Source: Paractinoplanes maris
GTDB lineage: Bacteria > Actinomycetota > Actinomycetes > Mycobacteriales > Micromonosporaceae
Reading direction: 5' to 3'
Assembly (NCBI RefSeq): GCF_023544465.1
Contig: NZ_JALPVL010000005.1
Location: forward strand, 62,001-126,000
DNA: 64,000 nt
This document shows positions 13,152 to 37,900 of this stretch, one piece after another. Position numbers and translations under genes: made by a program. Every line of letters begins with the position of its first letter. The stretch's first letter is position 1. Under the pieces are notes generated by a model. That model did no database searches. It was not told where the DNA came from and saw nothing but the letters and a program-made list of their open reading frames with translations.

Positions 13152-14225
13152 TCAGACCAGGTACTCCCCGCCGCAGGCCTCGGCGAGGGACGGGCCGAAG
13201 AGCGCGGCCGGGAAATGAGCGCCCGGCTTGCCCTCGCCGGCCAGCAGCCGGCACGCCACCTCGGCCGGCACGGCTCCCGTGAACGCCTGGGCCTCCCCCA
13301 CCCGGAGCCAGCCCTCCCGAACCTCACCGTCGGACCACCGCGCCCGGGCATGCCCCCACGAGTGCTCGCGGGGCTGCGGCCGGGTCTTGAACGCGACCCG
13401 GGCCAGCCGCCGGATCGCGAAGGCCCGCACCGGCGGGACTGCCAGCAGCGCCGCCGCGATCGGCAGCACCACCTGAACCAGGGACGACGACGGCACCTCG
13501 CTCGACGCGGACAGCACGGACGGCGCCCCGCTCGCCCGCTGGGCCGCGAGCAGTTCGCCGAGCGGCATGCCCGACGTGGTGACGCGCGAGCCGTCGGGCA
13601 ACGTGAGCTGTTGCGCGTCCCCGGCGAGCCGGGCCGGCACGAGCCCGCCGTCCCGAAACCGCCGGCCCCCGAACCGCCGACCGCCGGCGACACCGGGCAG
13701 CCCGCCGAGCATCGTGCCGGCGAGCGCCTCCCCGACCGCGCCGGCCTCCACCGCCAACGAGGGCACCATGTCGACCCGCACCTCGGCCGGAGCGGGCCGA
13801 CCGGAGCACAGCTTGACGACGACACTCTCGGTGGCCGTCACACCGAATCCAGCCCCGGTCACCAGCGTCCGCCCGGCCGCGGCCGCCGCGTCACCGCGAC
13901 CGAGCACGGCCGACACCGCCGCCAGGTCGTTGGCCAGGTCCACATAGTGACTGCCGGGCAGGCAGGCCCGGATGAGTGGCGCCGCGGTGTCCGCGAACGG
14001 CCCGACCGTGTTGATGACAACAGCCGGTTGCCGCCGCCGGATCTCCTCGGCGATCGCCTCGACCGACCCGGCGACCACCGTACGGCCGTGACCACCACCC
14101 GCCGCCGCGAGCCGACCGGCGTTCCGGCCGACCAGCACCGGTGACACCCCCCGCCGGCCCAACTCGGCCGCGACCGCGCGCCCACTGCGTCCGCTACCGC
14201 CCAGAACCCAGATCTCGTCTGTCAT
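13152..14225 (-). CDS. Saccharopine-dehydrogenase-like NAD(P)-binding oxidoreductase
   Basis: 357 residues from ATG 14225, preceded by GGAAGGGGG. The Rossmann motif is at the very N-terminus (V-L-G-G-S-G-R-S-G-R-A-V-A), then V-V-I-N-T-V-G-P-F and S-H-Y-V-D-L-A-N-D, which are characteristic of the saccharopine-dehydrogenase-like / trans-acting enoyl reductase group. The C-terminal half is the usual mixed domain ending in F-G-P-S-L-A-E-A. Cytosolic; substrate unknown. It is divergent from the TetR gene at 14303, and the 77-bp gap between them is filled by two copies of an operator, so this is the probable TetR target. Confidence 0.8.
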   Translation of the reverse strand: MTDEIWVLGGSGRSGRAVAAELGRRGVSPVLVGRNAGRLAAAGGGHGRTVVAGSVEAIAEEIRRRQPAVVINTVGPFADTAAPLIRACLPGSHYVDLANDLAAVSAVLGRGDAAAAAGRTLVTGAGFGVTATESVVVKLCSGRPAPAEVRVDMVPSLAVEAGAVGEALAGTMLGGLPGVAGGRRFGGRRFRDGGLVPARLAGDAQQLTLPDGSRVTTSGMPLGELLAAQRASGAPSVLSASSEVPSSSLVQVVLPIAAALLAVPPVRAFAIRRLARVAFKTRPQPREHSWGHARARWSDGEVREGWLRVGEAQAFTGAVPAEVACRLLAGEGKPGAHFPAALFGPSLAEACGGEYLV

Positions 14226-14240
14226 GACGCCCCCTTCCGA

Positions 14241-14288
14241 TGACACGTCGTGTCGTCACCATAGACGTGATGGCACGCCATGTCATCA
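14241..14288. promoter_or_regulatory. Duplicated TetR operator between divergent genes
   Basis: Two copies of TGRCACGYCRTGTCRTCA lie at 14241-14258 and 14271-14288, 14 of 18 bases identical and exactly 30 bp apart (about three helical turns). The first contains the perfect palindrome GACACG-T-CGTGTC. They fill the gap between the dehydrogenase start (14225) and the TetR start (14303), so autoregulation plus control of the dehydrogenase is expected. Confidence 0.75.
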
Positions 14289-14302
14289 CGTAGGATGCCC
14301 GA

Positions 14303-14863
14303 GTGAGCAGATGGCAGCCGGACGCGCGCGAGCGCCTCGAGCAGGCCGCCATCGCATTGTTCGTGGAGCAGGGCTTCGCGGCCACGACGGTTCCGCAGAT
14401 CACCGCGCGGGCCGGGCTCACCACGCGCACGTTCTTCCGCCACTACGCCGACAAGCGAGAGGTCCTCTTCGCCGGCGACGAGATCCCCGCCATGGCCGCC
14501 CGCATGATGGCCGACGCTCCCCCCGACGCCGACCCGATGACGCTGATCCTCGACGGCCTCGAGACGGTCACCCGGACCCGCTTCGACCCCCGCCGCCACG
14601 ACCTGCGCCAACGCCGCCGGATAGTGCGCTCCGATCCCGCCCTGCAGGAACGCGACCTCCGCAAGCGAGCCGCTCTGAGCGAGGCCATCCGCAGCGGCTT
14701 CGAGTCCCGCGGCCTCGGCCCCACCCAGGCCGCCCTCCTGGCTGAGACGGCGCTGACCTTGCTCTACGTCTCCCTCGACGAGTGGCTGGACGCCGACGAC
14801 GACGCCCCGCTCCATACCTACATCGAGAAGACGTTGTCGGTCCTGCGCGACACCATCGCCTGA
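14303..14863 (+). CDS. TetR-family transcriptional repressor
   Basis: 186 residues from GTG 14303. The N-terminal HTH is canonical: A-A-I-A-L-F-V-E-Q-G-F-A-A-T-T-V, then I-T-A-R-A-G-L-T-T-R-T-F-F-R-H-Y-A-D-K. The C-terminal ligand domain is helical and resembles actinobacterial TetR proteins of the ABC type. It binds as dimers to palindromes, and the two matching operator copies just upstream support autorepression and repression of the divergent dehydrogenase. The effector is unknown. Its 3' end overlaps an antisense methyltransferase remnant. Confidence 0.92.
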   Translation: MSRWQPDARERLEQAAIALFVEQGFAATTVPQITARAGLTTRTFFRHYADKREVLFAGDEIPAMAARMMADAPPDADPMTLILDGLETVTRTRFDPRRHDLRQRRRIVRSDPALQERDLRKRAALSEAIRSGFESRGLGPTQAALLAETALTLLYVSLDEWLDADDDAPLHTYIEKTLSVLRDTIA

Positions 14864-15115
14864 CCCGGTGACCGGGCAATCGGCGACAGGTCCGCGCCGA
14901 ATGCCTCGATACCGACGTCGTTGAGGTGAGCGGTGACGTATCCAGGGCCGCAGCCGAGATAGGCCACCGGCCCGCCGCCGGCGGCGTGGGCCAGGTCTGC
15001 GAACAGCGCCAGCACAGCACGCAGATATGGCTCCTCGGACAACGAATCGCGGACGAAGCCGGCGTAACTGCCGGCAATGGTGTCGTATGACGTCGGGGTG
15101 TCGACAAGCCAGCCG
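14860..15115 (-). pseudogene. Remnant of a class I SAM methyltransferase
   Basis: On the minus strand the frame reads S-Y-D-T-I-A-G-S-Y-A-G-F, then a helix and motif I V-A-Y-L-G-C-G-P-G-Y-V-T-A-H-L, and F-G-A-D-L-S-P. This is the N-terminal third of an actinobacterial methyltransferase. There is no start codon before S-Y-D, where the frame runs into the istB remnant, and the rest of the catalytic domain is missing because the frame runs into the 3' end of the tetR gene. Truncated on both sides. Confidence 0.75.
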
Positions 15116-25957: not shown

Positions 25958-26797
25958 CTACATGACCCAGCGGTCGACCAGGGCCTCGTGGGCTTCGAGA
26001 CGCTGCTGGGTGCGCACCGGGTCGGTGCCGGCGACAGCGTCGAGGAGGCTGATCGCCAGCACCACAGTGGCCGCGTGCGAGTCGAAGACCAGGCCGGTGC
26101 CGACCGGGGCGACCAGCAGGACGTCGGCGTCGCCGGCGAACGGGACGAGCGGGCTGTCGGCCACGATCACGGTGGCCAGGCCGAGCTGCCGGGCCAGGCG
26201 GATCGCGGCGACCGTGCTCGCCGGGTATCGCGGCATCGCGAACACCAGAACCGCGCTCGCGCCCTGCTGGTGCAGTTGCAGGACGGCGTCGTCGAGACCG
26301 CCGGCGTCGGTGTGGACCGAGGTTGACGGGAGGACCCGGCGAGCGAAGTACCCGAAGTACTCGGCCAGCGCGGCCGAGGCCCGCAAGCCGATCACGCCGA
26401 GCGGCGAAGTGGCGGCCAGCAGGCGGACGGCCGCGGCCATCCGCTCCCCGTCGAGCTCCCGGCCCAGACCGGACAGGTTCGCGACCTCCTGGTGCAGCGG
26501 GCTGTGCCGGTCCAGGGTGACGTCGCCGGCCTGACCGGCGAGCACGACCTCGCGCAGGGCCGCGCGGAACTCGGGATAGCCGGCGAAGCCGAGCGCGGTG
26601 GCCAGCCGGGTCACGGTCGGCTGGCTGACACCGGCCTGCTCGGCGATCTCGATGGTGGAGAGGAACGCCACATCGGGAAACAGGGCGAGCATCCGCTGCA
26701 CGATCTGCCGCTGGCTGGGCGACAGCCGGTGCCGTTGCGCGAGCTCCAGCAGCCAGTCCTCGGCGCGGCCGGTGTCCAGCCGGTTCTCCAACGTCAT
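25958..26797 (-). CDS. MurR/RpiR-family transcriptional regulator
   Basis: 279 residues. N-terminal RpiR HTH (S-T-I-E-I-A-E-Q-A-G-V-S-Q-P-T-V-T-R-L-A at about 47-66, then L-G-F-A-G-Y-P-E-F), followed by a SIS domain (about 125-255) of the type that binds phosphosugars. Here the SIS part is fairly degenerate, so the effector may be another metabolite. Divergent from the ornithine-cyclodeaminase-like gene with 49 bp between starts, so it likely regulates that gene and the following lyase gene. No clear palindrome was identified in the gap. Confidence 0.88.
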   Translation of the reverse strand: MTLENRLDTGRAEDWLLELAQRHRLSPSQRQIVQRMLALFPDVAFLSTIEIAEQAGVSQPTVTRLATALGFAGYPEFRAALREVVLAGQAGDVTLDRHSPLHQEVANLSGLGRELDGERMAAAVRLLAATSPLGVIGLRASAALAEYFGYFARRVLPSTSVHTDAGGLDDAVLQLHQQGASAVLVFAMPRYPASTVAAIRLARQLGLATVIVADSPLVPFAGDADVLLVAPVGTGLVFDSHAATVVLAISLLDAVAGTDPVRTQQRLEAHEALVDRWVM

Positions 26798-26846: not shown

Positions 26847-27869
26847 GTGCATGACATGATTCAGGAGATCTGGCTCCGGTTTCTCAACGGCGCCGACATC
26901 GACGGCCTGGGCCTGGGAACGGCCGACGTGATCGGCGCGGTCGAGGACGTCGTGGCGGCGCACGGCCGCGGCGAGACCGTTTTCGAGCCCCGTACGCATC
27001 TGGTCCCCCGCAACGGCGGCGCCGGCCACTTCAACGTGCTCCGCGGCCACGTCGACACGCTCGGCGAGCGGGGCCTGAGCGGCGTCAAGGTCGTCGGCGA
27101 CTTCGTGCCCAACTACCAGCAGGGCCTGCCCAGCGAGCTCGCGCTGATGACCGTCTTCGACCCGACCAACGGCGTCCCGCTGGCGATCATGGACGCCACC
27201 CTGATCACCGAGGTGCGCACCGGCGCGATGACCGCCGTCGGCGCGAAATACCTGGCCCGCCCCGACTCCAGGATTCTCGGCCACGTCGGCGCGCGCGGCA
27301 CGGCGTTCGCCAACGTCACCATGCTCGACAGCCTGTTCCCGCTGGAGGAGATCCGGGTCACCAGCCGCCGGCCCGAGTCGCGCGAGTCCTTCGCGGCCCG
27401 GCTGCGCGAGGTCACCGCGACCCCGGTGCGCGCGGTGGCGACCTCCGACGAGGCCTTCGACGGCGCCGACATCCTGGTCGAGGCGTCCCGGCTGGAGAAA
27501 CCGGCACCCCTGTTGCGGACGGCGGCCGTCAAGCCGGGCGCTTTCGTCGTCCCCTACGGCACGATCAGTGCGGTCGAGCTCGACCTGCTCGACGTGATGG
27601 ACAAGGTGGTGGTCGACGACTGGCGCGAGTCGCAGTCGGGCCGCTTCGGCAGCCTGCGCGCGCACGTCGACAGCGGCCGGCTGAGCGAGCAGAGCCTCTA
27701 CGCCCAGATCGGCGAGATCGTCAGCGGGCAGAAGCCGGGCCGCGAGCGCGCCGACGAGCGCATCCTCTTCTGGCATCGCGGCCTGTCGGTGCTCGACGTC
27801 GCCCTGGCCCACCTGATCCTGACCCGCGCCGAGGCCACCGACGTGGGCACGATGCTGCGTTACCGATGA
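26847..27869 (+). CDS. Ornithine cyclodeaminase / mu-crystallin family protein
   Basis: 340 residues from GTG 26847. ATG 26856 is an equally possible start, and neither has a strong ribosome site. Typical family blocks: the substrate pocket G-G-A-G-H-F-N-V-L, D-P-T-N-G-V-P-L-A-I-M-D-A-T-L-I-T-E-V-R-T-G-A-M-T-A-V-G-A-K-Y-L-A and a Rossmann NAD(H) loop H-V-G-A-R-G-T-A. Members include ornithine cyclodeaminase, alanine dehydrogenase, ketimine reductases and opine-type enzymes. This is a soluble NAD(P)-dependent imine or amino-acid enzyme. It overlaps the downstream lyase-fold gene by 4 bp, so the products act together. Confidence 0.85.
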   Translation: MHDMIQEIWLRFLNGADIDGLGLGTADVIGAVEDVVAAHGRGETVFEPRTHLVPRNGGAGHFNVLRGHVDTLGERGLSGVKVVGDFVPNYQQGLPSELALMTVFDPTNGVPLAIMDATLITEVRTGAMTAVGAKYLARPDSRILGHVGARGTAFANVTMLDSLFPLEEIRVTSRRPESRESFAARLREVTATPVRAVATSDEAFDGADILVEASRLEKPAPLLRTAAVKPGAFVVPYGTISAVELDLLDVMDKVVVDDWRESQSGRFGSLRAHVDSGRLSEQSLYAQIGEIVSGQKPGRERADERILFWHRGLSVLDVALAHLILTRAEATDVGTMLRYR

Positions 27870-29359
27870 CCGGCACCCTTCCCGTACGCGTGATCAGGCG
27901 CGCGCCCGACCTCGACCGCACCGTCATCGCCGAGCTCGCGCGGGGCGCCGTCCGCGTCGAGCTGACCGCGGAGCTGACCGGCGCCCTGGCCGAGAGCCGC
28001 CGATCCACCCTGGCCGACCTCGAAGGCCGGACCGTCTACGGGGTCAACACCGGCATGGGCGCGATGTCCGGCCTCCGCCTCGACGCCGCGGCCCAGCGCC
28101 ACCACCAGGACAACCTCATGATCGGCCGGGCGGTCGGGTCGGCACCGTGGCTGCGCCGCGATCAGGCCCGGGCCCTGCTCGCCGCGCGCCTGCGCAGCTT
28201 CCTCGACCCGTCGGCCGGGGTCTCCGACGAGCTCTGCCGCCTCCTGGCCGACCTCCTCAACGCGGACGTCGTACCGGCGGTCCCGGCCCTCGGCAGCGGC
28301 GCGGCCGGCGAGATCATCCCGCTCGCCCACGCGGGCGCCGCCCTGATCGGCGCCGGCCAGGTCCTCGACCACACCGGGCCACCGGTCGACGCGGAGCCCG
28401 CCCTGGCCAAGGCGGGGCTGGCGATCCGGTCGTTCGGCCCCAAGGAGGGCATCGCCTTCCTCGAAGGGGTGCCGGGCCTGACCGGGCTGGCCGTGCTGGG
28501 CAGCGCGGCCACCCACACCCTGCTGAGCCAGATCCTGGCCGCCACGGCCGCTTCGCACACCGCGGTCCGGGCCAGCCTCGACCCCCTGCACCCGGCGCTG
28601 GCCGACAGCGCCGAGCTGAGCGCGGTGCTGGCCGGCTTGCGGGAACGCCGGGGCCACGGGGACGCCGGGGCTCTGCAGGCGCCCGTCTCGTTCCGGGTCA
28701 CCGCACCCGCTCTGGCCGTGGCGCTGCGGGCGGTCGCCGCCCTCGACGCGGCCATCGACCGCACCCTGAACGCGGTCACCGACTCCCCGGCCCACCTGGA
28801 CGGTGAGTTCGTCGGCACGTTCGGCTTCGCCGGCACCGACCTGACAGCGACCCTCGGCGCGCTCACCACGGCGCTGGTCCACCTGGCCGACCTGGGCGCG
28901 GCCCGGCTGCACCGCCTGCTCGACCCGCGCGTGACCGGCCTGGCGCCGCAACTGTCGGCGTCGCCCGGCCTGCACGCCGGGATGGCCGCCGTCCACAAAC
29001 GCGCCGCCGGGGTCACCCATCGCCTGCGCCGCTTCGCCCTCCCGGCGCTGCCGGGCGCGATCGAGACCTCGCTGGGCCAGGAAGACGTCCAGAGTTTCGG
29101 CTTCGAGGCCGCCGAATGCCTGGACGAGGTGCTGACCGGCCTGCGCGACATCCTGGCCTGCGAACTCCTGGCCGTCGTCCAGGCCCAGCGCCTCGGCGCT
29201 CCGCGGACCGCCGCCCTCGACGACCTGGACGCCACCCTGCCGCCCGGAACCGTCGACCGCGTGTTCGGCCGCGACATCGACCACATCATCGAGCTGCTCA
29301 CCAGCGGCTGGCCGTCCGACCCGGCGACCAGCAACGCCGGGCGGCCGAACGCAAGCTGA
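27866..29359 (+). CDS. Aromatic amino acid lyase-fold protein without MIO serine (A-A-G)
   Basis: 497 residues, HAL/PAL superfamily length, ATG overlapping the upstream stop. V-Y-G-V-N-T-G-M-G matches the HAL Tyr53 segment. At the MIO site the sequence is G-S-G-A-A-G-E-I-I-P-L-A-H (Ala146-Ala147-Gly148) where A-S-G-D is expected. The dehydroalanine-forming Ser is Ala, so the methylidene-imidazolone cofactor cannot form. Other changes: Q-D-x-Y-S-L-R is Q-A-P-V-S-F-R and G-N-F-H-G is F-G-F-A-G, while G-Q-E-D is kept near the C-terminus. It is probably a cofactor-free lyase or a non-catalytic homologue. MIO-free members such as ergothionase are known. Coupled to an OCD-family gene, under probable RpiR control. 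Confidence 0.85.
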   Translation: MTGTLPVRVIRRAPDLDRTVIAELARGAVRVELTAELTGALAESRRSTLADLEGRTVYGVNTGMGAMSGLRLDAAAQRHHQDNLMIGRAVGSAPWLRRDQARALLAARLRSFLDPSAGVSDELCRLLADLLNADVVPAVPALGSGAAGEIIPLAHAGAALIGAGQVLDHTGPPVDAEPALAKAGLAIRSFGPKEGIAFLEGVPGLTGLAVLGSAATHTLLSQILAATAASHTAVRASLDPLHPALADSAELSAVLAGLRERRGHGDAGALQAPVSFRVTAPALAVALRAVAALDAAIDRTLNAVTDSPAHLDGEFVGTFGFAGTDLTATLGALTTALVHLADLGAARLHRLLDPRVTGLAPQLSASPGLHAGMAAVHKRAAGVTHRLRRFALPALPGAIETSLGQEDVQSFGFEAAECLDEVLTGLRDILACELLAVVQAQRLGAPRTAALDDLDATLPPGTVDRVFGRDIDHIIELLTSGWPSDPATSNAGRPNAS

Positions 29360-30613: not shown

Positions 30614-31597
30614 TCAGCGCGGCGGGCTGGTCGAGCCGCGGACGACCAGCTCCGGACGGAAGAGCGGAGCCCCGCCGGGCGAGTGGAGCTTCTCGACGGC
30701 GGCGGCCACGATGGCGTCCTCGTCCCAGGCCATCGTGGTCAGTCCCGGCTGGACCAGGACGGCCAGCTGGTGGTCGTCGTAGCCGACCACCGACAGGTCG
30801 CCGGGGATGGTCAGGCCGGCGTCGCGGGCCGCGCGGTAGACGGCGAAGGCCAGCGAATCGCTCAGGCAGAACACGCCGGTCGGGCGCCCGGGCCCGGCCA
30901 GCAGCGCCGACACCACCTCGACGGCGTCGGTGGTGGCGGCCGGCGCGGCGATGGCCACCAGTTCGATGCCGAGCTGCTCGGCGATCGAGGGCGCGAGCAG
31001 CTGGGCCGGGCGGCCCGGGGTGGAGGGCAGCGCGGGCGCGAGCAGCCCGACCCGGCGATGGCCCAGCTCGGCGAGGTGGGCGAAGGCCGTCCGGACCCCG
31101 TACCCGTTGTCGAAGAGCACGCTGCTGGAGCCGGGCCGGGCCACGAGCGCGTCGCCGATCGACACGACGGCGACCGAGGGGTCGAGCAGGCGCCAGTAGT
31201 CGGCCGTCGGGTCGACCGGGGAGACGAGGGCGCCGTCGACGCGCTGGGCGGCGAACTGCTCCACGATGCGGCGCTCGAGGGCGGGATCGGCGTCGGCGTC
31301 GGCGATCGTCGCGAACCGTCCCTCGCGGCGCAGGGCCCGGGTGAGCAGCACCGACAGGTCCTGCTGCCAGAGATCGCGCAGCGAGCCGGAGACCCCGATC
31401 CAGCCCGTACGCCCGCTGGCCAGCGCCCGGGCGATCGGGTCGACGGTGTAGCCGAGATCGTCGGCCAGCTCGCGAACGCGCTGGATGGTGGCCGGCGAGC
31501 CGCGCAGGCCGCGCAGTGCGTACGAGGTGGCCGCGAGCGAGAGCCCGGCGGCGGATGCCAGGTCCTGCAGCGTCCGTCGCCCCTGCTGCTTAGGCAC
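30614..31597 (-). CDS. LacI-family transcriptional regulator
   Basis: 327 residues. N-terminal HTH T-L-Q-D-L-A-S-A-A-G-L-S-L-A-A-T-S-Y-A-L-R-G (usual V-S-R-V-L-N is T-S-Y-A-L-R), then a periplasmic-binding-like ligand domain with D-G-A-L-V-S-P, G-H-R-R-V-G-L-L and S-V-V-G-Y-D-D. Homodimeric repressor. A strong double palindrome of LacI type (GAAGCGCTTC cores) lies between this gene and the divergent amidohydrolase gene, supporting control of that operon and autorepression. Ligand not deducible. Confidence 0.9.
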   Translation of the reverse strand: MPKQQGRRTLQDLASAAGLSLAATSYALRGLRGSPATIQRVRELADDLGYTVDPIARALASGRTGWIGVSGSLRDLWQQDLSVLLTRALRREGRFATIADADADPALERRIVEQFAAQRVDGALVSPVDPTADYWRLLDPSVAVVSIGDALVARPGSSSVLFDNGYGVRTAFAHLAELGHRRVGLLAPALPSTPGRPAQLLAPSIAEQLGIELVAIAAPAATTDAVEVVSALLAGPGRPTGVFCLSDSLAFAVYRAARDAGLTIPGDLSVVGYDDHQLAVLVQPGLTTMAWDEDAIVAAAVEKLHSPGGAPLFRPELVVRGSTSPPR

Positions 31598-31658: not shown

Positions 31659-31700
31659 AGGGAAGCGCTTCACTTACCCGGTCATGTGAAGCGCTTCCCT
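31659..31700. promoter_or_regulatory. Double LacI-type operator
   Basis: A 42-bp palindrome: AGGGAAGCGCTTCAC (31659-31673), 12-nt spacer, then its exact reverse complement (31686-31700). Each arm itself contains the perfect 10-bp palindrome GAAGCGCTTC, the LacI/GalR-family core, with centres 26 bp apart. It lies 18 nt before the amidohydrolase ATG and 61 bp before the lacI start. Confidence 0.88.
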
Positions 31701-31718
31701 AGCCGGCGAGGAGGGTCG

Positions 31719-32615
31719 ATGGTGATCGACTGCCATCAGCATCTGTGGCCGGCCCGGCTTATCGACGCGCTCCGCCGCCGCCAGACCCACCCCTATCTGC
31801 GGGGTTGGACGCTGCACCTGCCGGGCGAGCCGCCGTATGAGGTGGATCCGGCCGCCCATGACGTCGAGCGCCGCCGGGAGCAGGAGCGGCGCGACGGCCG
31901 GACGCGGGTCCTCGTGTCGCTGTCCAGCCCGCTGGGTATCGAGCACCTGCCGGCCCACGACGGGGCCGAGCTGATCGATCTCTGGCACGAGAGCGCGCTC
32001 GAGCTGGGCGAGCCCTACCACGTGTGGGCGGCCGCCGCGGTCACCGAGCTCGACCCGGACGGCCTGGCCAAGGTGCTGCGCGAGGAGCGGGTGGCCGGGC
32101 TGCAACTGCCGGCCACGGCGCTGGCCGACCCGGCCGGCATCGCCCACGTCGAGCCGCTGCTGGCCGAGGCGGAGCGGGCGGGCAAGCCGGTGCTGGTGCA
32201 TCCCGGGCCCGCCCCCGCCTGCGACCCCGGCCTGCCGGCCTGGTGGCCCGCCCTGGTGCCGTACGTCTCGCAGCTGCACCAGTCGTGGCTGGCCTGGCAC
32301 GTCGCCGGTCGCCGCCGGCACCCCCACCTGCGTGTCGGGTTCGTGGCGCTGGCCGGGCTGGCTCCGCTGCATCACGAGCGGCTGGCCGCGCGCGGGGGCG
32401 CCCTCGGTGCGCTCGACCCCAACGTCTTCTACGAGACCTCGTCCTACGGCACGCGCGCGATCGACGCGCTGATCCGGGTCGTCGGGGTCGATCCGATCGT
32501 GTCGGGCTCCGACCGCCCGTACGCCGAAGCCGTCGACCCCGGTCTGGGCGCGGCCTTCACGCACGCCCTGTTCGATGCCAACCCGCGCCACTTTCTCACT
32601 GGGGAGTCCCGATGA
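31719..32615 (+). CDS. Amidohydrolase family 2 (PF04909) TIM-barrel hydrolase/decarboxylase
   Basis: 298 residues from ATG 31719 behind GAGGAGG. The metal-binding motif opens the protein (V-I-D-C-H-Q-H-L-W), V-L-V-H-P-G-P carries a conserved His and S-G-S-D-R-P-Y the catalytic Asp near the C-terminus. Relatives are lactonases (2-pyrone-4,6-dicarboxylate), decarboxylases and hydrolases of small carboxylic compounds. First gene of a two-gene operon with the cysteine-dioxygenase-like gene (ATGA overlap), driven from the double LacI operator. Exact substrate unknown. Confidence 0.85.
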   Translation: MVIDCHQHLWPARLIDALRRRQTHPYLRGWTLHLPGEPPYEVDPAAHDVERRREQERRDGRTRVLVSLSSPLGIEHLPAHDGAELIDLWHESALELGEPYHVWAAAAVTELDPDGLAKVLREERVAGLQLPATALADPAGIAHVEPLLAEAERAGKPVLVHPGPAPACDPGLPAWWPALVPYVSQLHQSWLAWHVAGRRRHPHLRVGFVALAGLAPLHHERLAARGGALGALDPNVFYETSSYGTRAIDALIRVVGVDPIVSGSDRPYAEAVDPGLGAAFTHALFDANPRHFLTGESR

Positions 32616-33106
32616 CCGTGTTGCCGGCCCCGCCCGGTCGTGTGCTGGATCTGCACGAGCTCAAGCGCTGGGTGGCCGACCTCGCCGCCCGGCCCGAGCT
32701 GTGGGAGCACCTCGTGCGGCACGAGACGGGCAAGCGGCACTACGCGTCGGTCTACCGCGACAGCGACATCGACGTCTGGGTGCTGTGCTGGAACGTCGTG
32801 GACGACACCGGCTGGCACGACCACGACACGTCGTCGGGCGCGGTGGCCGTCACCCGGGGCGCGGTCACCGAGGCCACCCCGCGGATGGGCGGCGAGCCGG
32901 TCACCCGGGTCGTGGGGGCGGGGCGGACGTTCGCCTTCTCGCCCGACCACATCCACCGGATGGGCGGCGCGGTCGACGGCTCGGTCTCCCTCCACGCGTA
33001 TTCGCCGCCGCTGTGGCGCATGGGGCAGTATTCGATCAGCAGTTCGGGCGTGCTGCGCCGCCGGGCGGTCAGTTACGCCGACGAGCTCAGGCCCATCGAC
33101 GAGTAG
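32612..33106 (+). CDS. Cysteine dioxygenase-like thiol dioxygenase (cupin)
   Basis: 164 residues, ATG overlapping the preceding TGA, GGGGAG upstream. The cupin iron ligands are visible as W-H-D-H (His69, His71) and D-H-I-H (His113 or His115). The second-shell triad S-x-H-x-Y is kept in S-V-S-L-H-A-Y-S-P-P (Ser126, His128, Tyr130), which is diagnostic for cysteine dioxygenase-type enzymes. The residue aligned with the substrate carboxylate Arg (usually in Y-x-R) seems to be Ser46, so the substrate may be another thiol. Non-heme iron enzyme making a sulfinate. Its last 34 bp overlap the convergent lyase-fold gene. Confidence 0.82.
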   Translation: MTVLPAPPGRVLDLHELKRWVADLAARPELWEHLVRHETGKRHYASVYRDSDIDVWVLCWNVVDDTGWHDHDTSSGAVAVTRGAVTEATPRMGGEPVTRVVGAGRTFAFSPDHIHRMGGAVDGSVSLHAYSPPLWRMGQYSISSSGVLRRRAVSYADELRPIDE

Positions 33107-34530
33107 TCGAGCACGGCGCCCAGCTCGGGCAGCAGCTCGGCCGCGCGCTCCAGGTCGGCTCCGAGCGGCCGGTCCTCCTCGGACGTGTCCAGCTGCTCGG
33201 AGGCCATCTCGAACGCGTCCCGGACCGGCCCGGCGATGAGCCGGCCCGGAGCCATCCGCAGCGCGCGGACGGCGGCCACCAGCTCGGCCGCCAGCAGCGT
33301 CGGCGCCAGGTGGGTCATCGTGCGCAGCGAGCGGGCGCCCTGGGTGGCGAAGCTGGCGTGCTCCTCCAGCCCGAGCGAGATGCTCAGCGTGCCGGCCGCC
33401 GTCGGGGTCATGCCGACCCGGATCTCGGTCAGCAGATCCTGGACGACGTACTCGCTGATCATGAGACCGGAGCTGCCGGCCGGACCGGCCGCCAGGAAGG
33501 CTCGCAGCCCGGTCAGGTCGGGTCGCATCAGCAGTCCCAGTCGCGCGGTCGACAGCGACAGCACCGGCAGGAACGCCCCGCGCACGGCGTCCAGCTGGGA
33601 GGCCAGCGTCGCCGTGTGGAACTGCCCGTGATGCCGTACGCCGTCCGGGGTGACCAGCGGGTTCTCGACGGCGCCGTTGAACTCGGCGGCCAGCGCGTCG
33701 TCGAGTGACCGGGCGGCGTGGATGGCCGGCGCGGTGACCTGGGGCAGCACCCGCAGGCCGAACGGGTCCTGGATGCGTACCGGGGCGCCGCTGCCGGCCA
33801 CCAGGCGGCCCATCAGCCGGGCCACCTCGACCTGGCCGGGATGGGGCCGGTAACGGTGCACGGTCACGTCGTACGCCTCGGGGTTGCCCCGCAGGGCCAG
33901 GAAGCTCAGCGCCGCCACCACCATGGACGCGCGGAGCTGGCTCTGCACCCGCTGCAACGCCAGCGCGGCGGTGGCCACGGTGAGCGCGCTCGAACTGATC
34001 ATCGGCAGCGCATCGGTGGTGCCGAACGGGGTGATCGGGCCCTTGCCGTCACGCCACGGCCGCTCGCCGGCCAGCGTCAGGCTCAGCTCGGCCAGGGCGG
34101 CCAGGTCGCCGGTGCCGATCGCGCCCCAGTTGTGGATCGTCGGCACCGCCCCGTCGTGCAGCGCCTCGGCCAGTGCCTCGGCGACCTGCCGGGAGACCCC
34201 GGAGCCCCCGGCCAGGATCTGGTTGAGGCGGACGGTCATCATGGCCCGGGCGGTGATGTCGTCCTCGATCGGGCCGACGGCCGCGCAGTGACTGCGCAGC
34301 AGCCGCAGACCGCGCTCCTCGTCGCCGGCCGTGCGCTCGTGCCGATTGGCACCGACCCCGGTATTGGCGCCGTAGACTGCCCCGTGCGCCCGTGCCTGCT
34401 GCAGCAGGGCATGCCGCCCCTCGACCCGTCGCAGAGCGGCCGGATCGACCTCGACCCCGCATCGACCGGAGGCGATGGCCAGGAGCGCAGCCAGCGTCAG
34501 ACCACGACCGTCGAGTCGTTCTACCTGCAT
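33073..34530 (-). CDS. Aromatic amino acid lyase-fold protein with G-T-G at the MIO site
   Basis: 485 residues. HAL landmarks: V-Y-G-A-N-T-G-V-G (Tyr53), N-Q-I-L-A-G-G-S-G, Q-D-P-F-G-L-R (for Q-D-x-Y-S-L-R) with Arg kept, G-Q-F-H for G-N-F-H, and G-L-E-E-H for N-Q-E-D-H. The MIO tripeptide A-S-G is replaced by Gly139-Thr140-Gly141 (W-G-A-I-G-T-G-D-L, codon for Thr at 34111-34113). A normal MIO is not expected. The fold plus lack of MIO resembles ergothionase-type C-N lyases. It is divergent from a quaternary-amine-type ABC transporter and convergent with a thiol dioxygenase gene. Substrate not proven. Confidence 0.85.
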   Translation of the reverse strand: MQVERLDGRGLTLAALLAIASGRCGVEVDPAALRRVEGRHALLQQARAHGAVYGANTGVGANRHERTAGDEERGLRLLRSHCAAVGPIEDDITARAMMTVRLNQILAGGSGVSRQVAEALAEALHDGAVPTIHNWGAIGTGDLAALAELSLTLAGERPWRDGKGPITPFGTTDALPMISSSALTVATAALALQRVQSQLRASMVVAALSFLALRGNPEAYDVTVHRYRPHPGQVEVARLMGRLVAGSGAPVRIQDPFGLRVLPQVTAPAIHAARSLDDALAAEFNGAVENPLVTPDGVRHHGQFHTATLASQLDAVRGAFLPVLSLSTARLGLLMRPDLTGLRAFLAAGPAGSSGLMISEYVVQDLLTEIRVGMTPTAAGTLSISLGLEEHASFATQGARSLRTMTHLAPTLLAAELVAAVRALRMAPGRLIAGPVRDAFEMASEQLDTSEEDRPLGADLERAAELLPELGAVLDYSSMGLSSSA

Positions 34531-34579
34531 AGCGCCACCATCACACGTGTCTCTAGACCGTAACGGCTCCCCCGATCCG

Positions 34580-34625
34580 TTGACATCTTATTCACTACCC
34601 CTGAAGTATGAATAGTGGTATTCAT
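34580..34625 (+). promoter_or_regulatory. Promoter elements and operator before the ABC transporter operon
   Basis: A TTGACA -35-like hexamer at 34580-34585 is followed by AT-rich DNA containing the perfect inverted repeat ATGAATA-GTGG-TATTCAT (34608-34625). The repeat lies at the expected -10/+1 region, 18 nt before the ATPase start, a repressor position. A clear -10 is not resolved. The region is shared with the divergent lyase-fold gene (start 34530). Confidence 0.6.
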
Positions 34626-34642
34626 CGCTAGCCTGGAGCGCC

Positions 34643-35650
34643 ATGATCACATTCGATGACGTCGTGAAGGTCTACCCCGGCGGCGGCACCGCAGTCGATC
34701 ACGTCTCGCTGGAGCTTCCCACCGGCAAAACTACGGTCTTCGTCGGGCCGTCGGGCTGCGGAAAGACCACTTCCCTCCGCATGATCAACAGAATGATCAG
34801 CCCGACCTCGGGCCGCGTCCTGATCGACGGCAAGGACGTCGCCGGCCAGGACGAGGCACTGCTGCGGCGCGGCATCGGCTATGTGATCCAGCACGCCGGC
34901 CTCTTCCCGCACCGCACCGTGCTGGACAACGTGGCCACCGTGCCGGTCCTGCTCGGCAAGACCCGCCGCGAGGCCCGTGACACCGCGATGCAGGTGCTCG
35001 AGCGGGTCGGCCTGGCCCCCGAGTTCGCCCAGCGTTACCCCGCTCAGCTCTCCGGGGGCCAGCAGCAGCGCGTCGGGGTGGCCCGGGCGCTGGCCGCCGA
35101 CCCGCCGATCATGCTGATGGACGAGCCGTTCAGCGCGGTCGACCCGGTCGTCCGCGAGCAGCTGCACCGCGAGTTCCTGCGCCTGCAGTCCGAGCTGGGC
35201 AAGACGATCGCCATGGTCACCCACGACATCGACGAGGCGATCAAGCTCGGCGACGAGGTCGTGATCTTCCGCCAGGGCGGCATCGTGGCCCAGGTCGGCA
35301 CCCCGCAGGAGCTGCTGGCCAACCCGGCCGACGAGTTCGTCGCCGAGTTCGTGGGCCGCGACCGCGGGCTGCGCAGCCTGTCGTTCGACACCGCGGCCGA
35401 GATGCCGGTGCGGCCGCTGCCGGCCGAGCTCGTGGTCGACGAGGCGGGCCGGCCGCTGGGCTGGAAGTCGTCCGACGGGATGAAGCCGACCGGTGGCTCC
35501 TTCACCAGCGGCGACACCCTGCGCCTGGTGGCCGACCTGGCGATCCTGTCGCCGGTGGGCATCGCGGTGCGGGTCGACGCGAACGGGGTCGCCGACGGCA
35601 TCGCGCCCCACCACGACCTGGCCGACTACCTGGCGGCGCGGCGCGGCTGA
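34643..35650 (+). CDS. OpuCA/EgtV-like ABC transporter ATPase (betaine/ergothioneine type)
   Basis: 335 residues. Walker A G-P-S-G-C-G-K-T, Q-loop V-I-Q-H-A-G-L-F-P-H, signature L-S-G-G-Q-Q-Q-R-V-G-V-A-R and Walker B I-M-L-M-D-E-P. The sequence I-N-R-M-I-S-P-T-S-G is typical of the quaternary-amine (ProV/OpuCA) group. After the nucleotide-binding domain (about 240 residues) comes a short C-terminal domain that looks like one degenerate CBS-type motif. Cytoplasmic energy unit of an importer. First gene of a tightly packed four-gene operon, 1-bp overlap with the next gene. Confidence 0.88.
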   Translation: MITFDDVVKVYPGGGTAVDHVSLELPTGKTTVFVGPSGCGKTTSLRMINRMISPTSGRVLIDGKDVAGQDEALLRRGIGYVIQHAGLFPHRTVLDNVATVPVLLGKTRREARDTAMQVLERVGLAPEFAQRYPAQLSGGQQQRVGVARALAADPPIMLMDEPFSAVDPVVREQLHREFLRLQSELGKTIAMVTHDIDEAIKLGDEVVIFRQGGIVAQVGTPQELLANPADEFVAEFVGRDRGLRSLSFDTAAEMPVRPLPAELVVDEAGRPLGWKSSDGMKPTGGSFTSGDTLRLVADLAILSPVGIAVRVDANGVADGIAPHHDLADYLAARRG

Positions 35651-36300
35651 TGATCACTTATCTCTCCAACAACTCCGAGACCGTGCTGGCCGCACTCCGC
35701 CAGCACATCTGGCTCGCGCTGCTCCCGGTGCTGCTCGGCTTCGTCATCGCGCTGCCCATCGGCTATCTGGGCGTCCGCTTCCCGTGGCTCTATCACCCGT
35801 TGGTCAACGTGGCCGGTGTGCTCTATTCGATCCCGTCGCTGGCGCTGTTCGTGTTCCTGCCGGTCGTGCTGGGCACGAGGATCCTGTCGCCGCTCAACAT
35901 CGTCGTCGCGCTCACCATCTACACCGTGGCGCTGCTGGCCCGCACGGTCGCCGACGGTCTGCGGTCGGTCGACCACCTGATCACCGAGTCGGCCACCGCG
36001 ATGGGCTACCGCCGGCTGCGGCGCCTGATCGACGTCGAGCTGCCGGTGGCGCTGCCGGTCATCCTGGCCGGCCTGCGGGTGGCCACGGTGGCGAACATCA
36101 GCCTGGTCAGCGTGGGCGCGCTGATCGGCGTGGGCGGGCTCGGCCAGCTGTTCACCCGGGGCTTCCAGCTCTTCTACATCGAGCCGATCCTGGTCGGCGT
36201 CATCCTCTCGGTGCTGCTGGCCGCCGTCGCCGACCTGGCCATCGTGCTGATCCAGCGGGCGGTCACGCCGTGGACGCGCTTCCAAGGGGGCCGGGCGTGA
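35650..36300 (+). CDS. ABC transporter permease (OpuCB-like)
   Basis: 216 residues with about six membrane helices. The EAA loop shows R-T-V-A-D-G-L-R-S-V and I-T-E-S-A-T-A-M-G-Y-R-R-L-R-R-L-I-D-V-E-L-P, the permease-ATPase contact. Length and pattern fit the ProW/OpuCB family that imports glycine betaine, choline, carnitine or similar amines. The start ATG shares one base with the stop of the ATPase gene, and the stop overlaps the next permease GTG (GTGA). Confidence 0.88.
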   Translation: MITYLSNNSETVLAALRQHIWLALLPVLLGFVIALPIGYLGVRFPWLYHPLVNVAGVLYSIPSLALFVFLPVVLGTRILSPLNIVVALTIYTVALLARTVADGLRSVDHLITESATAMGYRRLRRLIDVELPVALPVILAGLRVATVANISLVSVGALIGVGGLGQLFTRGFQLFYIEPILVGVILSVLLAAVADLAIVLIQRAVTPWTRFQGGRA

Positions 36301-36956
36301 ACCTCTCCTACCTGTTCGACGCGGCGCACTGGGATCTCAACGCCTCGGGCAGCATCCCGCAGCTGCTTCTCTCACACCTCTGGTACGTGTTCCTGGCGCT
36401 CGCCATCGGCACGGTGATCGCCCTCCCGATCGGCCTGTACATCGGGCACACCGGACGCGGCTCGTTCATCGCGATCAACGCCGGTAACGCGGGCCGCTCG
36501 CTGCCTACCCTGGGCCTGCTGATGCTCATGGTGACGTTGCTCGGGCTGGGCCTGCTCCCGGTCCTGATCGCCCTCACCGTCCTGGTCATCCCGCCGATCC
36601 TGACCTCGGCCTACGCGGGTCTGCGGTCTCTCGACCAGCGGGTCGTGGACGCCGCCCGGGGCGTGGGCATGCGGCCCTGGCAGGTGCTCACCCGGGTCGA
36701 GCTGCCGATGGCGCTGCCGGTGCTGATGAGCGGTTTCCGCAGCGCCGCCCTGCAGGTGGTCGCCACCGCGACCGTGGCCGCCGCCGTGGGCCTGGGCGGT
36801 CTCGGCCGCCTCCTGATCGACGGCCTGGCCGTCAACGACTATTCCCGAGTGCTCGCCGGCGCCATCGTTGTCGCGGTGCTGGCCGTCCTGCTCGACCTGA
36901 TCCTGGCGCTGGCACAGCGCTGGATCATCTCTCCCGGCCTCCGGGCGTCCCGATGA
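36297..36956 (+). CDS. ABC transporter permease, second subunit (OpuCD-like)
   Basis: 219 residues from GTG 36297, overlapping the upstream stop. Membrane topology as for the first permease, EAA-type loop G-L-R-S-L-D-Q-R-V-V-D-A-A-R-G-V-G-M-R-P. Having two different permease genes around one ATPase is typical of OpuC-type systems. The stop overlaps the ATG at 36953. The substrate is defined by the following lipoprotein. Confidence 0.88.
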   Translation: MNLSYLFDAAHWDLNASGSIPQLLLSHLWYVFLALAIGTVIALPIGLYIGHTGRGSFIAINAGNAGRSLPTLGLLMLMVTLLGLGLLPVLIALTVLVIPPILTSAYAGLRSLDQRVVDAARGVGMRPWQVLTRVELPMALPVLMSGFRSAALQVVATATVAAAVGLGGLGRLLIDGLAVNDYSRVLAGAIVVAVLAVLLDLILALAQRWIISPGLRASR

Positions 36957-36967
36957 AAGGTCCATTG

Positions 36968-37900
36968 ATGAAGCGTTTCGGCCGTTTCAGCGCGGTAACC
37001 ACCGCGCTGGCGCTCACTGTTGCCCTCACGGCCTGCGGTGCCGACGAAGACCCGCTGGCCAACGACAACGGCGGCGGCAGCGCCGCGCCCGGCACCATCA
37101 CCGTCGGCTCGGCCAACTTCGCCGAGAGCGAGCTCCTCGGCGAGATCTACTCGCAGGCCCTCGAGGCCAAGGGTGTGCAGGTCAAGCGGCAGTTCAACAT
37201 CGGCGCCCGCGAGCTCTACCTGAAGGCGCTGCAGGACGGCTCGATCGACCTGCTGCCCGAGTACAACGGCGCGCTGCTGTCGGCCCTGCAGAAGGGCGGC
37301 GCGCCCGAGGGCGTCAGCAAGCCCGAGGACGTGCTGGCGGCGCTGAAGAAGGTCCTGCCGGCCGGCACCGAGGTGCTGGAGCAGTCGCCGGCCGAGGACA
37401 AGGACACGCTGACCGTCACCCAGGAGACGGCGACCAAGTACAGCCTGAAGACGATCGACGACCTCAAGCCGGTCGCCGGCCAGCTGACGATCGGCGCCGG
37501 TCCCGAGTGGCAGGAGCGCTACCAGGGTCTCAAGGGCCTGGAGTCGCTCTACGGGCTCAAGTTCAAGGAGTTCAAGCCGCTCGACGCCGGTGGCCCGCTG
37601 ACCGTCAACGCCCTGGTCAAGGGTCAGATCCAGGTCGGCAACATCTTCTCCACCGACTCGTCGATCGCGACCAACAAGTTCGTGGTGCTCGAGGACCCGA
37701 AGAACCTCTACCTGGCCGAGAACATCATCCCGCTGATCCGCTCGACGGCCAACAACCCGACCGTCACCGGCGCGCTCAACGCGGTCTCGGCCAAGCTGAC
37801 CACCGAGAACCTGACCACCACGCTGGCCAAGGTGCAGGTCGACAAGCAGGACACGGCGTCGGTGGCCAAGGGCTGGCTGACCGAGAACGGCCTGGTCTGA
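36968..37900 (+). CDS. Substrate-binding lipoprotein of the OpuC/ProX/EgtU type
   Basis: 310 residues from ATG 36968, preceded by AAAGG. ATG 36953, which overlaps the permease stop, is an alternative. Lipoprotein signal with lipobox L-T-A-C. The mature part is a two-lobed OpuAC/ProX domain with the family opening G-S-A-N-F-A-E-S-E-L-L-G-E-I-Y and I-D-L-L-P-E-Y-N-G. Such proteins bind quaternary ammonium compounds or, in EgtU-type systems, ergothioneine. Aromatic-cage residues cannot be assigned by eye. A 12-bp hairpin terminator follows the stop, marking the operon end. Confidence 0.88.
   Translation: MKRFGRFSAVTTALALTVALTACGADEDPLANDNGGGSAAPGTITVGSANFAESELLGEIYSQALEAKGVQVKRQFNIGARELYLKALQDGSIDLLPEYNGALLSALQKGGAPEGVSKPEDVLAALKKVLPAGTEVLEQSPAEDKDTLTVTQETATKYSLKTIDDLKPVAGQLTIGAGPEWQERYQGLKGLESLYGLKFKEFKPLDAGGPLTVNALVKGQIQVGNIFSTDSSIATNKFVVLEDPKNLYLAENIIPLIRSTANNPTVTGALNAVSAKLTTENLTTTLAKVQVDKQDTASVAKGWLTENGLV

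Follow-up and report, generated by a model that had tools for sequence, protein, structure and literature searches.

We analysed a 64,000-nucleotide stretch of the Paractinoplanes maris genome (contig NZ_JALPVL010000005.1, positions 62,001 to 126,000; hereafter the window) that encodes LyB, a homologue of the aromatic amino acid lyases lacking the residues of the built-in 4-methylideneimidazol-5-one (MIO) cofactor. We propose, with about even confidence, that LyB frees trimethylamine from a histidine-derived betaine as a C-N lyase independent of MIO and belongs to an oxidative ergothioneine-degradation cluster; its reaction would most likely convert hercynine to urocanate. The proposal is built at the level of sequence, from the loss of the MIO residues, the retention of the substrate residues of histidine ammonia-lyase (HAL), placement in the ergothionase clade, an adjacent homologue of ergothioneine dioxygenase (55-59% identity) and a conserved gene neighbourhood.

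The LyB protein and its relatives

The open reading frame of LyB (485 aa) starts with ATG and ends with TAA. Re-translation returned everything that a preliminary description of this DNA had read from it, namely the frame itself, Tyr53, Thr140 in W-G-A-I-G-T-G-D-L, the Q-D-P-F-G-L-R motif (its Arg being Arg260), Q-F-H at 303-305 and E-E-H at 389-391. A Pfam profile search matched LyB over its full length to Lyase_aromatic (PF00221, 326 bits). Its genome (9.35 Mb, 31 contigs) holds three such matches: LyB, a second MIO-less lyase in the window (LyA) and a canonical HAL on another contig. The best NCBIfam score of LyB was 258.9, below half of the cut-off of 524, while its nearest PDB sequences are HALs and its overall fold is HAL-like. 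Compared with a relative (locus L034), LyB differs at 34, 13 and 143 first, second and third codon positions, respectively; because these changes fall mostly at third positions, the gene is under selection. With this pattern and with catalytic residues that are invariant (17/17), a pseudo-enzyme is unlikely.

Where HAL has G-S-V-G-A-S-G-D-L, the former MIO loop of LyB reads G-A-I-G-T-G-D-L, one residue shorter and without Ser. The loop of Treponema denticola ergothionase (6s7j), S-S-I-G-E-G-D-I, shows the same one-residue shortening. Across the LyB clade, Ser is absent from all 21 aligned rows, with Thr in 19 and Ile in two. The preliminary description had seen Thr in the Ser place and Gly for Ala; this is one of two readings, and the alignment gives the other, in which the A-S-G loop has lost one residue and Ser is missing altogether.

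The remaining active-site positions were numbered on Pseudomonas putida HAL. Tyr53, His83, Gln277, Asp278, Arg283 and Phe329 are kept in 21/21 LyB rows, as is Glu414 in all 20 rows that have a letter there. The place of Asn195, which we take to be a MIO contact, is occupied by Ser in every LyB row (21/21), in 6s7j and in all six rows of a third MIO-less group (see below). It is Asn in 25/25 rows of the HAL group, in which we counted L145, with an A-C-G loop, and 7tqr, whose row has X at MIO. At the Tyr280 place, LyB rows have Phe (14), Tyr (4), Leu (2) or Val (1), and at His330 they have His in 20 of 21 cases, compared with Asp or Glu in five of six ergothionase-like rows. Judged by these residues, LyB retains the histidine-recognising side of the active site and has lost the MIO side. 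The earlier view of LyB as a non-MIO enzyme with its catalytic residues kept is borne out by the missing Ser, the short loop, the Asn195 to Ser change and the retention of Tyr53, His83 and Arg283.

LyB shares with HutH (PDB 1B8F, 7TQR, 6V6H) the fold together with Tyr53, His83, Arg283, Phe329 and Glu414, but the window protein lacks the A-S-G triad and carries Ser for Asn195, Phe for Tyr280 and Leu for Gln413. With T. denticola ergothionase (PDB 6S7J, 6S7Q; Maurer et al. 2019) it has in common the HAL fold, the MIO loop shortened by one residue, the Asn195 to Ser change, the retained His83, Arg283 and Glu414, and the clade found in careful rooted trees. The two differ in overall sequence (24% identity by Foldseek) and in subclade; moreover, ergothionase has Glu where LyB has the loop Thr and again Glu where LyB has His at the His330 place.

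In a quick tree of 80 rows, LyA included, LyB grouped with ergothionase with a Shimodaira-Hasegawa-like approximate likelihood-ratio (SH-aLRT) support of 91, or 89 after removal of the active-site columns. The careful trees comprised 59 rows, with the long LyA lineage removed and a tyrosine aminomutase outgroup (a single partial row) added. In the rooted tree, LyB, ergothionase, the ergothionase-like rows and the third group form one clade among HALs (100/99). The clade returned with the same support when the loop and four active-site columns were omitted, and in that reduced tree holding LyB with the HALs was disfavoured (approximately unbiased test, p-AU 0.023). LyB forms its own subclade (100/100), and 6s7j sits on a long branch (1.7-1.9). 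A phylogeny with ergothionases and HALs, the comparison suggested in the preliminary description, places LyB in the ergothionase clade once LyA is left out. The grouping of LyB with ergothionase, apart from regular HALs, is supported by the two careful rooted trees; the quick LyA-inclusive tree left it open.

Genes around LyB in the window and in other genomes

The 3' end of the LyB gene overlaps a CDO_I-family gene, an overlap absent from the preliminary description, and this neighbour likely encodes an ergothioneine oxygenase. Its best PDB matches are the 8qfl-8qfr chains at 214-219 bits (218.7, E 4e-64), and the next is a cysteine dioxygenase (CDO) at 27.5 bits. The titles of entries 8QFL-8QFR name the ergothioneine dioxygenase of Thermocatellispora tengchongensis, to which the window protein is 55-59% identical over most of the chain and to which 13/13 of its top Foldseek chains belong. 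The AlphaFold model is poor (predicted local distance difference test, pLDDT, 45) and was used to reach the entry titles, the identity resting on the sequence match; VIA-align of this model again gave ergothioneine dioxygenase as the best hit (Z 5.2). His128 and Tyr130 of the window protein, invariant in 13/13 aligned orthologues, correspond to His147 and Tyr149, the residues altered in mutant entries 8QFQ and 8QFO. The same activity is predicted for the window protein, whose product would presumably be a sulfinate. Cysteine and 3-mercaptopropionate dioxygenases, at 27.5 bits or less against 218.7, are ruled out as identities of gene 32612-33106.

The dioxygenase gene in turn overlaps that of AmiH, an amidohydrolase-superfamily protein with an alternative ATG start at 31719. 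No Pfam family matched AmiH at a threshold of 0.001, and a profile of its family returned 12 weak matches (E 2e-4 to 9e-3) to ACMSD, uracil-5-carboxylate decarboxylase and one uncharacterised metal-dependent hydrolase. We infer that AmiH is possibly a sulfinate desulfinase; to our knowledge, this would be new chemistry for its family.

Of 61 genomes sampled from the genus, 34, among them that of P. maris, encode LyB with at least 68% identity; the gene is uninterrupted in 33 of them and split in one. Across 396 genomes of the phylum, 23 had a match; judged by the loop, 12 of these are LyB-type proteins, and the other 11 have an A-S-G loop. In the short genus loci (L004-L033, n=30, 1.5-kb flanks), the importer ATPase adjoins LyB in 29 and the dioxygenase in 20, with AmiH in the same 20. 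We also looked at 35 wider loci. The full set of four importer genes is found within 7 kb in 20/20 that came from the named-genome search, many of them from the same genomes as the short loci, and in 7/15 others, with three of the genes in one more. By comparison, nine canonical-HAL loci from the same family gave ATPase matches in five (30-37% identity) and no permease or binding-protein match (0/9). A locus from another genus (L055) has LyB, importer, dioxygenase, AmiH and LacI together. Two Winogradskya loci (L041, L042) have LyB, LyA, the importer and a gene of the ornithine-cyclodeaminase (OCD) family, with dioxygenase, AmiH and LacI absent.

Searching the 396 phylum genomes for the dioxygenase (E up to 1e-25) found it in six, each time with AmiH adjacent. 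In four of the six, a MIO-less lyase of the ergothionase clade lies within 4 kb, namely LyB in the P. maris genome and ergothionase-like proteins in G291, G360 and G424. The remaining two are a 3.6-kb contig (G586) and a genome without a lyase in the 14 kb fetched (G349). CDO-family proteins of G367 and G453 stand beside LyB or LyA and fall below the E 1e-25 cut. In this small sample, the dioxygenase-AmiH pair looks stable and appears to partner different lyases of one clade.

Some LyB homologues stood out in other respects. In Actinoplanes sp. M2I2 (L052) LyB is split across two frames and in G240 (L060) it is a fragment of ~200 aa; in both, the importer genes match full-length. A DUF4395 gene lies directly upstream of LyB homologues in L056 (8788-9324) and L057 (8850-9353).

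Table 1. Features of the window around LyB (positions within the window)
Feature	Position	Strand	Remarks
RpiR-type regulator (named by eye)	25958..26797	-	divergent from OCD gene; conserved in block
Ornithine-cyclodeaminase / mu-crystallin family oxidoreductase (OCD)	26847..27869	+	overlaps LyA by 4 bp (coordinates)
LyA, second MIO-less lyase	27866..29359	+	loop G-S-G-A-A-G-E-I; separate lineage
LacI-family regulator	30614..31597	-	divergent from AmiH
AmiH, amidohydrolase superfamily	31686..32615	+	weakly ACMSD / uracil-5-carboxylate-decarboxylase-like; overlaps dioxygenase gene by 4 bp
Ergothioneine dioxygenase homologue, CDO_I family	32612..33106	+	overlaps LyB 3' end by 34 bp
LyB, MIO-less aromatic-amino-acid-lyase homologue	33073..34530	-	485 aa; proposed histidine-betaine trimethylamine-lyase
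Former MIO loop of LyB, G-A-I-G-T-G-D-L	34102..34125	-	codons 136-143; coordinates follow from the ORF start
Divergent intergenic region, LyB / importer operon	34531..34642		112 bp
ABC importer ATPase, ProV/OpuC type	34643..35650	+	
ABC permease A	35650..36300	+	
ABC permease B	36300..36956	+	
OpuAC-family substrate-binding lipoprotein	36953..37900	+	EgtU determinants not conserved

The divergent importer has the 112-bp spacing and the ATPase/permease/permease/lipoprotein gene set previously described. Its assignment to an OpuC/EgtU group stood in part: it is of the quaternary-amine type at the family level only (OpuAC, 178 bits), and the likeness to EgtU fails. The binding lipoprotein is about equally near Lmo1422 (96.6 bits) and EgtUC (95 bits). 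In PMC9732360, Gly244 and a Tyr-to-Phe switch at 293 are given as the specificity determinants of EgtU. Mapped by hand, the EgtUC residues Lys242, Gly244 and Phe293 named there correspond to Ala54, Phe56 and Tyr104 in the window lipoprotein, and Thr296, Tyr341 and Tyr419 to Ala107, Asp151 and Val218. Considering Phe56 and Tyr104, we rejected an importer of the EgtU type. The window importer shares with EgtU the binding-protein superfamily and the equivalents of Glu375 and Arg379, which are kept in 14/14 aligned LyB-linked binding proteins; it differs in having separate permease and lipoprotein genes and in the six changed residues. Of the EgtUC cage (F293, Y341, Y419, Y443), aromatic equivalents are found in Tyr104 and Phe232, with Asp151 and Val218 at Y341 and Y419.

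Links to histidine degradation vary between loci. Of 14 loci outside the genus, a set that leaves out L053, a short contig from Kineococcus, five carry HutU no more than 10 kb from LyB. The LyB gene of L094 lies within a hut operon: HutH and the importer flank it on one side, while a carbamoylase-family amidase is found with HutU, HutF and HutI on the opposite side. A region of ~10 kb in L095 holds LyB, LyA, HutU and HutF together with a CDO-family protein and a protein that by eye is rhodanese-like. Scored as urocanate hydratase (cut-off 375), HutU of L094 reaches 935 bits and that of L095 887 bits; scored as thiourocanate hydratase (cut-off 930), they reach 681 and 642 bits, respectively. 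A single HutU is encoded in the P. maris genome, on the same contig as the canonical HAL, and EgtD of ergothioneine biosynthesis is present as well. Ergothionase-like proteins also occur beside actinobacterial hut genes in L102 (12290-13834; 260.7 bits to 6s7j), L160 and L161, the last two with an OpuC-type importer nearby.

Proposed reaction of LyB and its alternatives

MIO makes ammonia a better leaving group, and trimethylammonium needs no such help. Because a quaternary amine already leaves well, LyB would need no MIO. Ergothionase is likewise described as lacking MIO in PMC13405746. The intact imidazole and carboxylate anchors of LyB, the missing MIO, the ergothionase clade, the dioxygenase neighbour and the proximity of hut genes in some relatives together point to a histidine-betaine trimethylamine-lyase. 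Given that the genes overlap, LyB and the dioxygenase probably act in one ergothioneine route. In this route, the OpuC-type importer would take up the betaine, the dioxygenase would convert the C2 sulfur to a sulfinate, and AmiH, or simple acid chemistry, would remove SO2 to give hercynine. LyB would then eliminate trimethylamine from hercynine without MIO, and the single HutU with the rest of the hut pathway would complete the breakdown of the resulting urocanate. Hercynine is preferred over ergothioneine as the substrate, as the scored HutU partners are urocanate enzymes and the His at the His330 place is so widely kept in LyB rows. What we infer in this route is the reaction, the order of its steps, the choice of hercynine and the function given to AmiH.

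Several observations weigh against this proposal. The six ergothionase-like rows vary at the Asn195 place: three have Ser, two Asn and one Val. A Foldseek search with the LyB model (pLDDT 79) placed HALs at ranks 1-7 and ergothionase at rank 8. Constraining LyB with the HALs in the quick tree gave a slightly higher likelihood (p-AU 0.60), and the LyA removal and outgroup rebuild were chosen after this result was known. In nine of the 14 out-of-genus loci, no HutU match came within 10 kb of LyB. Nor is the dioxygenase obligatory, considering that 10 of the 30 short genus loci contain LyB and the ATPase gene without dioxygenase or AmiH. Finally, with two of the four aromatics lost from the quaternary-amine cage as mapped on EgtUC, a trimethylammonium ligand of the importer is not assured.

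One alternative is a true ergothionase, which would convert ergothioneine to thiourocanate and trimethylamine, with the dioxygenase acting on the product or in a parallel route. LyB is in the same MIO-less clade as 6s7j, ergothioneine is a likely cell substrate given the dioxygenase next door, and ten of the short loci have no dioxygenase near LyB. We consider this fairly unlikely, since the P. maris genome has one HutU homologue (the thiourocanate scoring covered the HutU of L094 and L095), both scored HutU neighbours of distant orthologues are ordinary urocanate hydratases, and the His330 place holds His in LyB rows as opposed to Asp or Glu in ergothionase-like ones. Another order of steps, in which LyB first takes trimethylamine off ergothioneine sulfinate (or sulfonate) and AmiH then desulfinates sulfino-urocanate, is unlikely: LyB retains a HAL-like imidazole site, and no dioxygenase lies near it in the Winogradskya loci or in four of the five HutU-bearing out-of-genus loci. 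The joint occurrence of dioxygenase, AmiH and a MIO-less lyase in four of the six dioxygenase genomes would fit this order, and an ergothioneine sulfonate pathway has reportedly been published and is counted in its favour.

The many loci that have LyB and importer without dioxygenase, together with the altered binding-protein cage, in which Asp151 replaces a Tyr of the EgtUC cage, could also mean that LyB uses some other histidine-like compound and expels a different leaving group, and that dioxygenase and AmiH form a separate neighbouring module. This seems quite improbable in view of the two genes adjoining LyB in 20 of the 30 short genus loci and in L055, and of the pair standing beside other lyases of the same clade in three other lineages. 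That LyB is a histidine or phenylalanine ammonia-lyase of the usual MIO-dependent kind is hardly credible, and this was ruled out by the loop, the Asn195 place and the careful trees. LyB resembles such enzymes in fold and in its closest PDB sequences, but it has no Ser, a short loop, Ser for Asn195 and an NCBIfam score far from the cut-off, and the genome has a canonical HAL elsewhere.

Building on the hercynine reaction of LyB, a complete oxidative ergothioneine pathway can be outlined, if only tentatively. AmiH would desulfinate an imidazole-2-sulfinate, the removal of SO2 being chemically parallel to the decarboxylation carried out in its branch of the family, and LyB would feed the hut pathway as a hercynine trimethylamine-lyase. 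In a branch running in parallel, LyA (Arg for His83) and the OCD-family enzyme beside it would deal with an anionic histidine betaine of higher oxidation state, for instance the sulfonate.

Other MIO-less lineages and wider meaning

The preliminary description had pointed out two MIO-less homologues within 6 kb. The count holds, and the tree places LyA in a lineage separate from LyB, with Arg at the His83 place in 22/22 LyA rows. An OCD-family gene accompanies MIO-less lyases with this Arg in two separate lineages, one being LyA and the other represented by L138 of the ergothionase clade (locus L154). The combination of LyA-type lyase and OCD is found in the window (26847-29359) and in L108, L122, L123, L125, L129 and L130, often with an OpuC-type importer; no OCD match was seen near LyA in L095, L124, L126, L127 and L128, some of which are near contig ends. 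Beside LyA in L095 is a membrane protein (13854-14891) resembling, by eye, the YeiH/UPF0324 putative sulfate exporters, which would fit a release of sulfite. The third MIO-less group, with a loop of the G-S-V-G-A-G-D-L type, comes from other actinobacterial classes (L136, L139, L140, L142, L143, L149), and its flanks as fetched, some on short contigs, gave no match to the hut, dioxygenase, permease or binding-protein queries.

The fold, the principle of a MIO-less lyase and ergothioneine dioxygenase are already known. A separate LyB clade, the dioxygenase/AmiH pairing and the two-lyase block were not found in a literature search that was weak on subscription journals, and may be in print; within the same scope, no recognisable paper on this dioxygenase, on thiourocanate hydratase or on a hercynine lyase was found. 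The ergothioneine dioxygenase paper may already describe such clusters. The term ergothioneine dioxygenase occurs once in PMC11818489, for trimethylamine formation, and in PMC13405746 ergothionase is given as known from few bacteria only.

Against this background, LyB represents a separate MIO-less clade, found in 34 of 61 genus genomes and in further actinobacterial lineages, whose neighbours often include the dioxygenase homologue. Together, LyB and the dioxygenase probably mark a little-known breakdown route for the antioxidant ergothioneine. If true, this would show how such bacteria regain the nitrogen and sulfur of a stable antioxidant. HAL, ergothionase, LyB and LyA also form a natural series on how an enzyme fold gives up its built-in cofactor when the leaving group no longer needs help.

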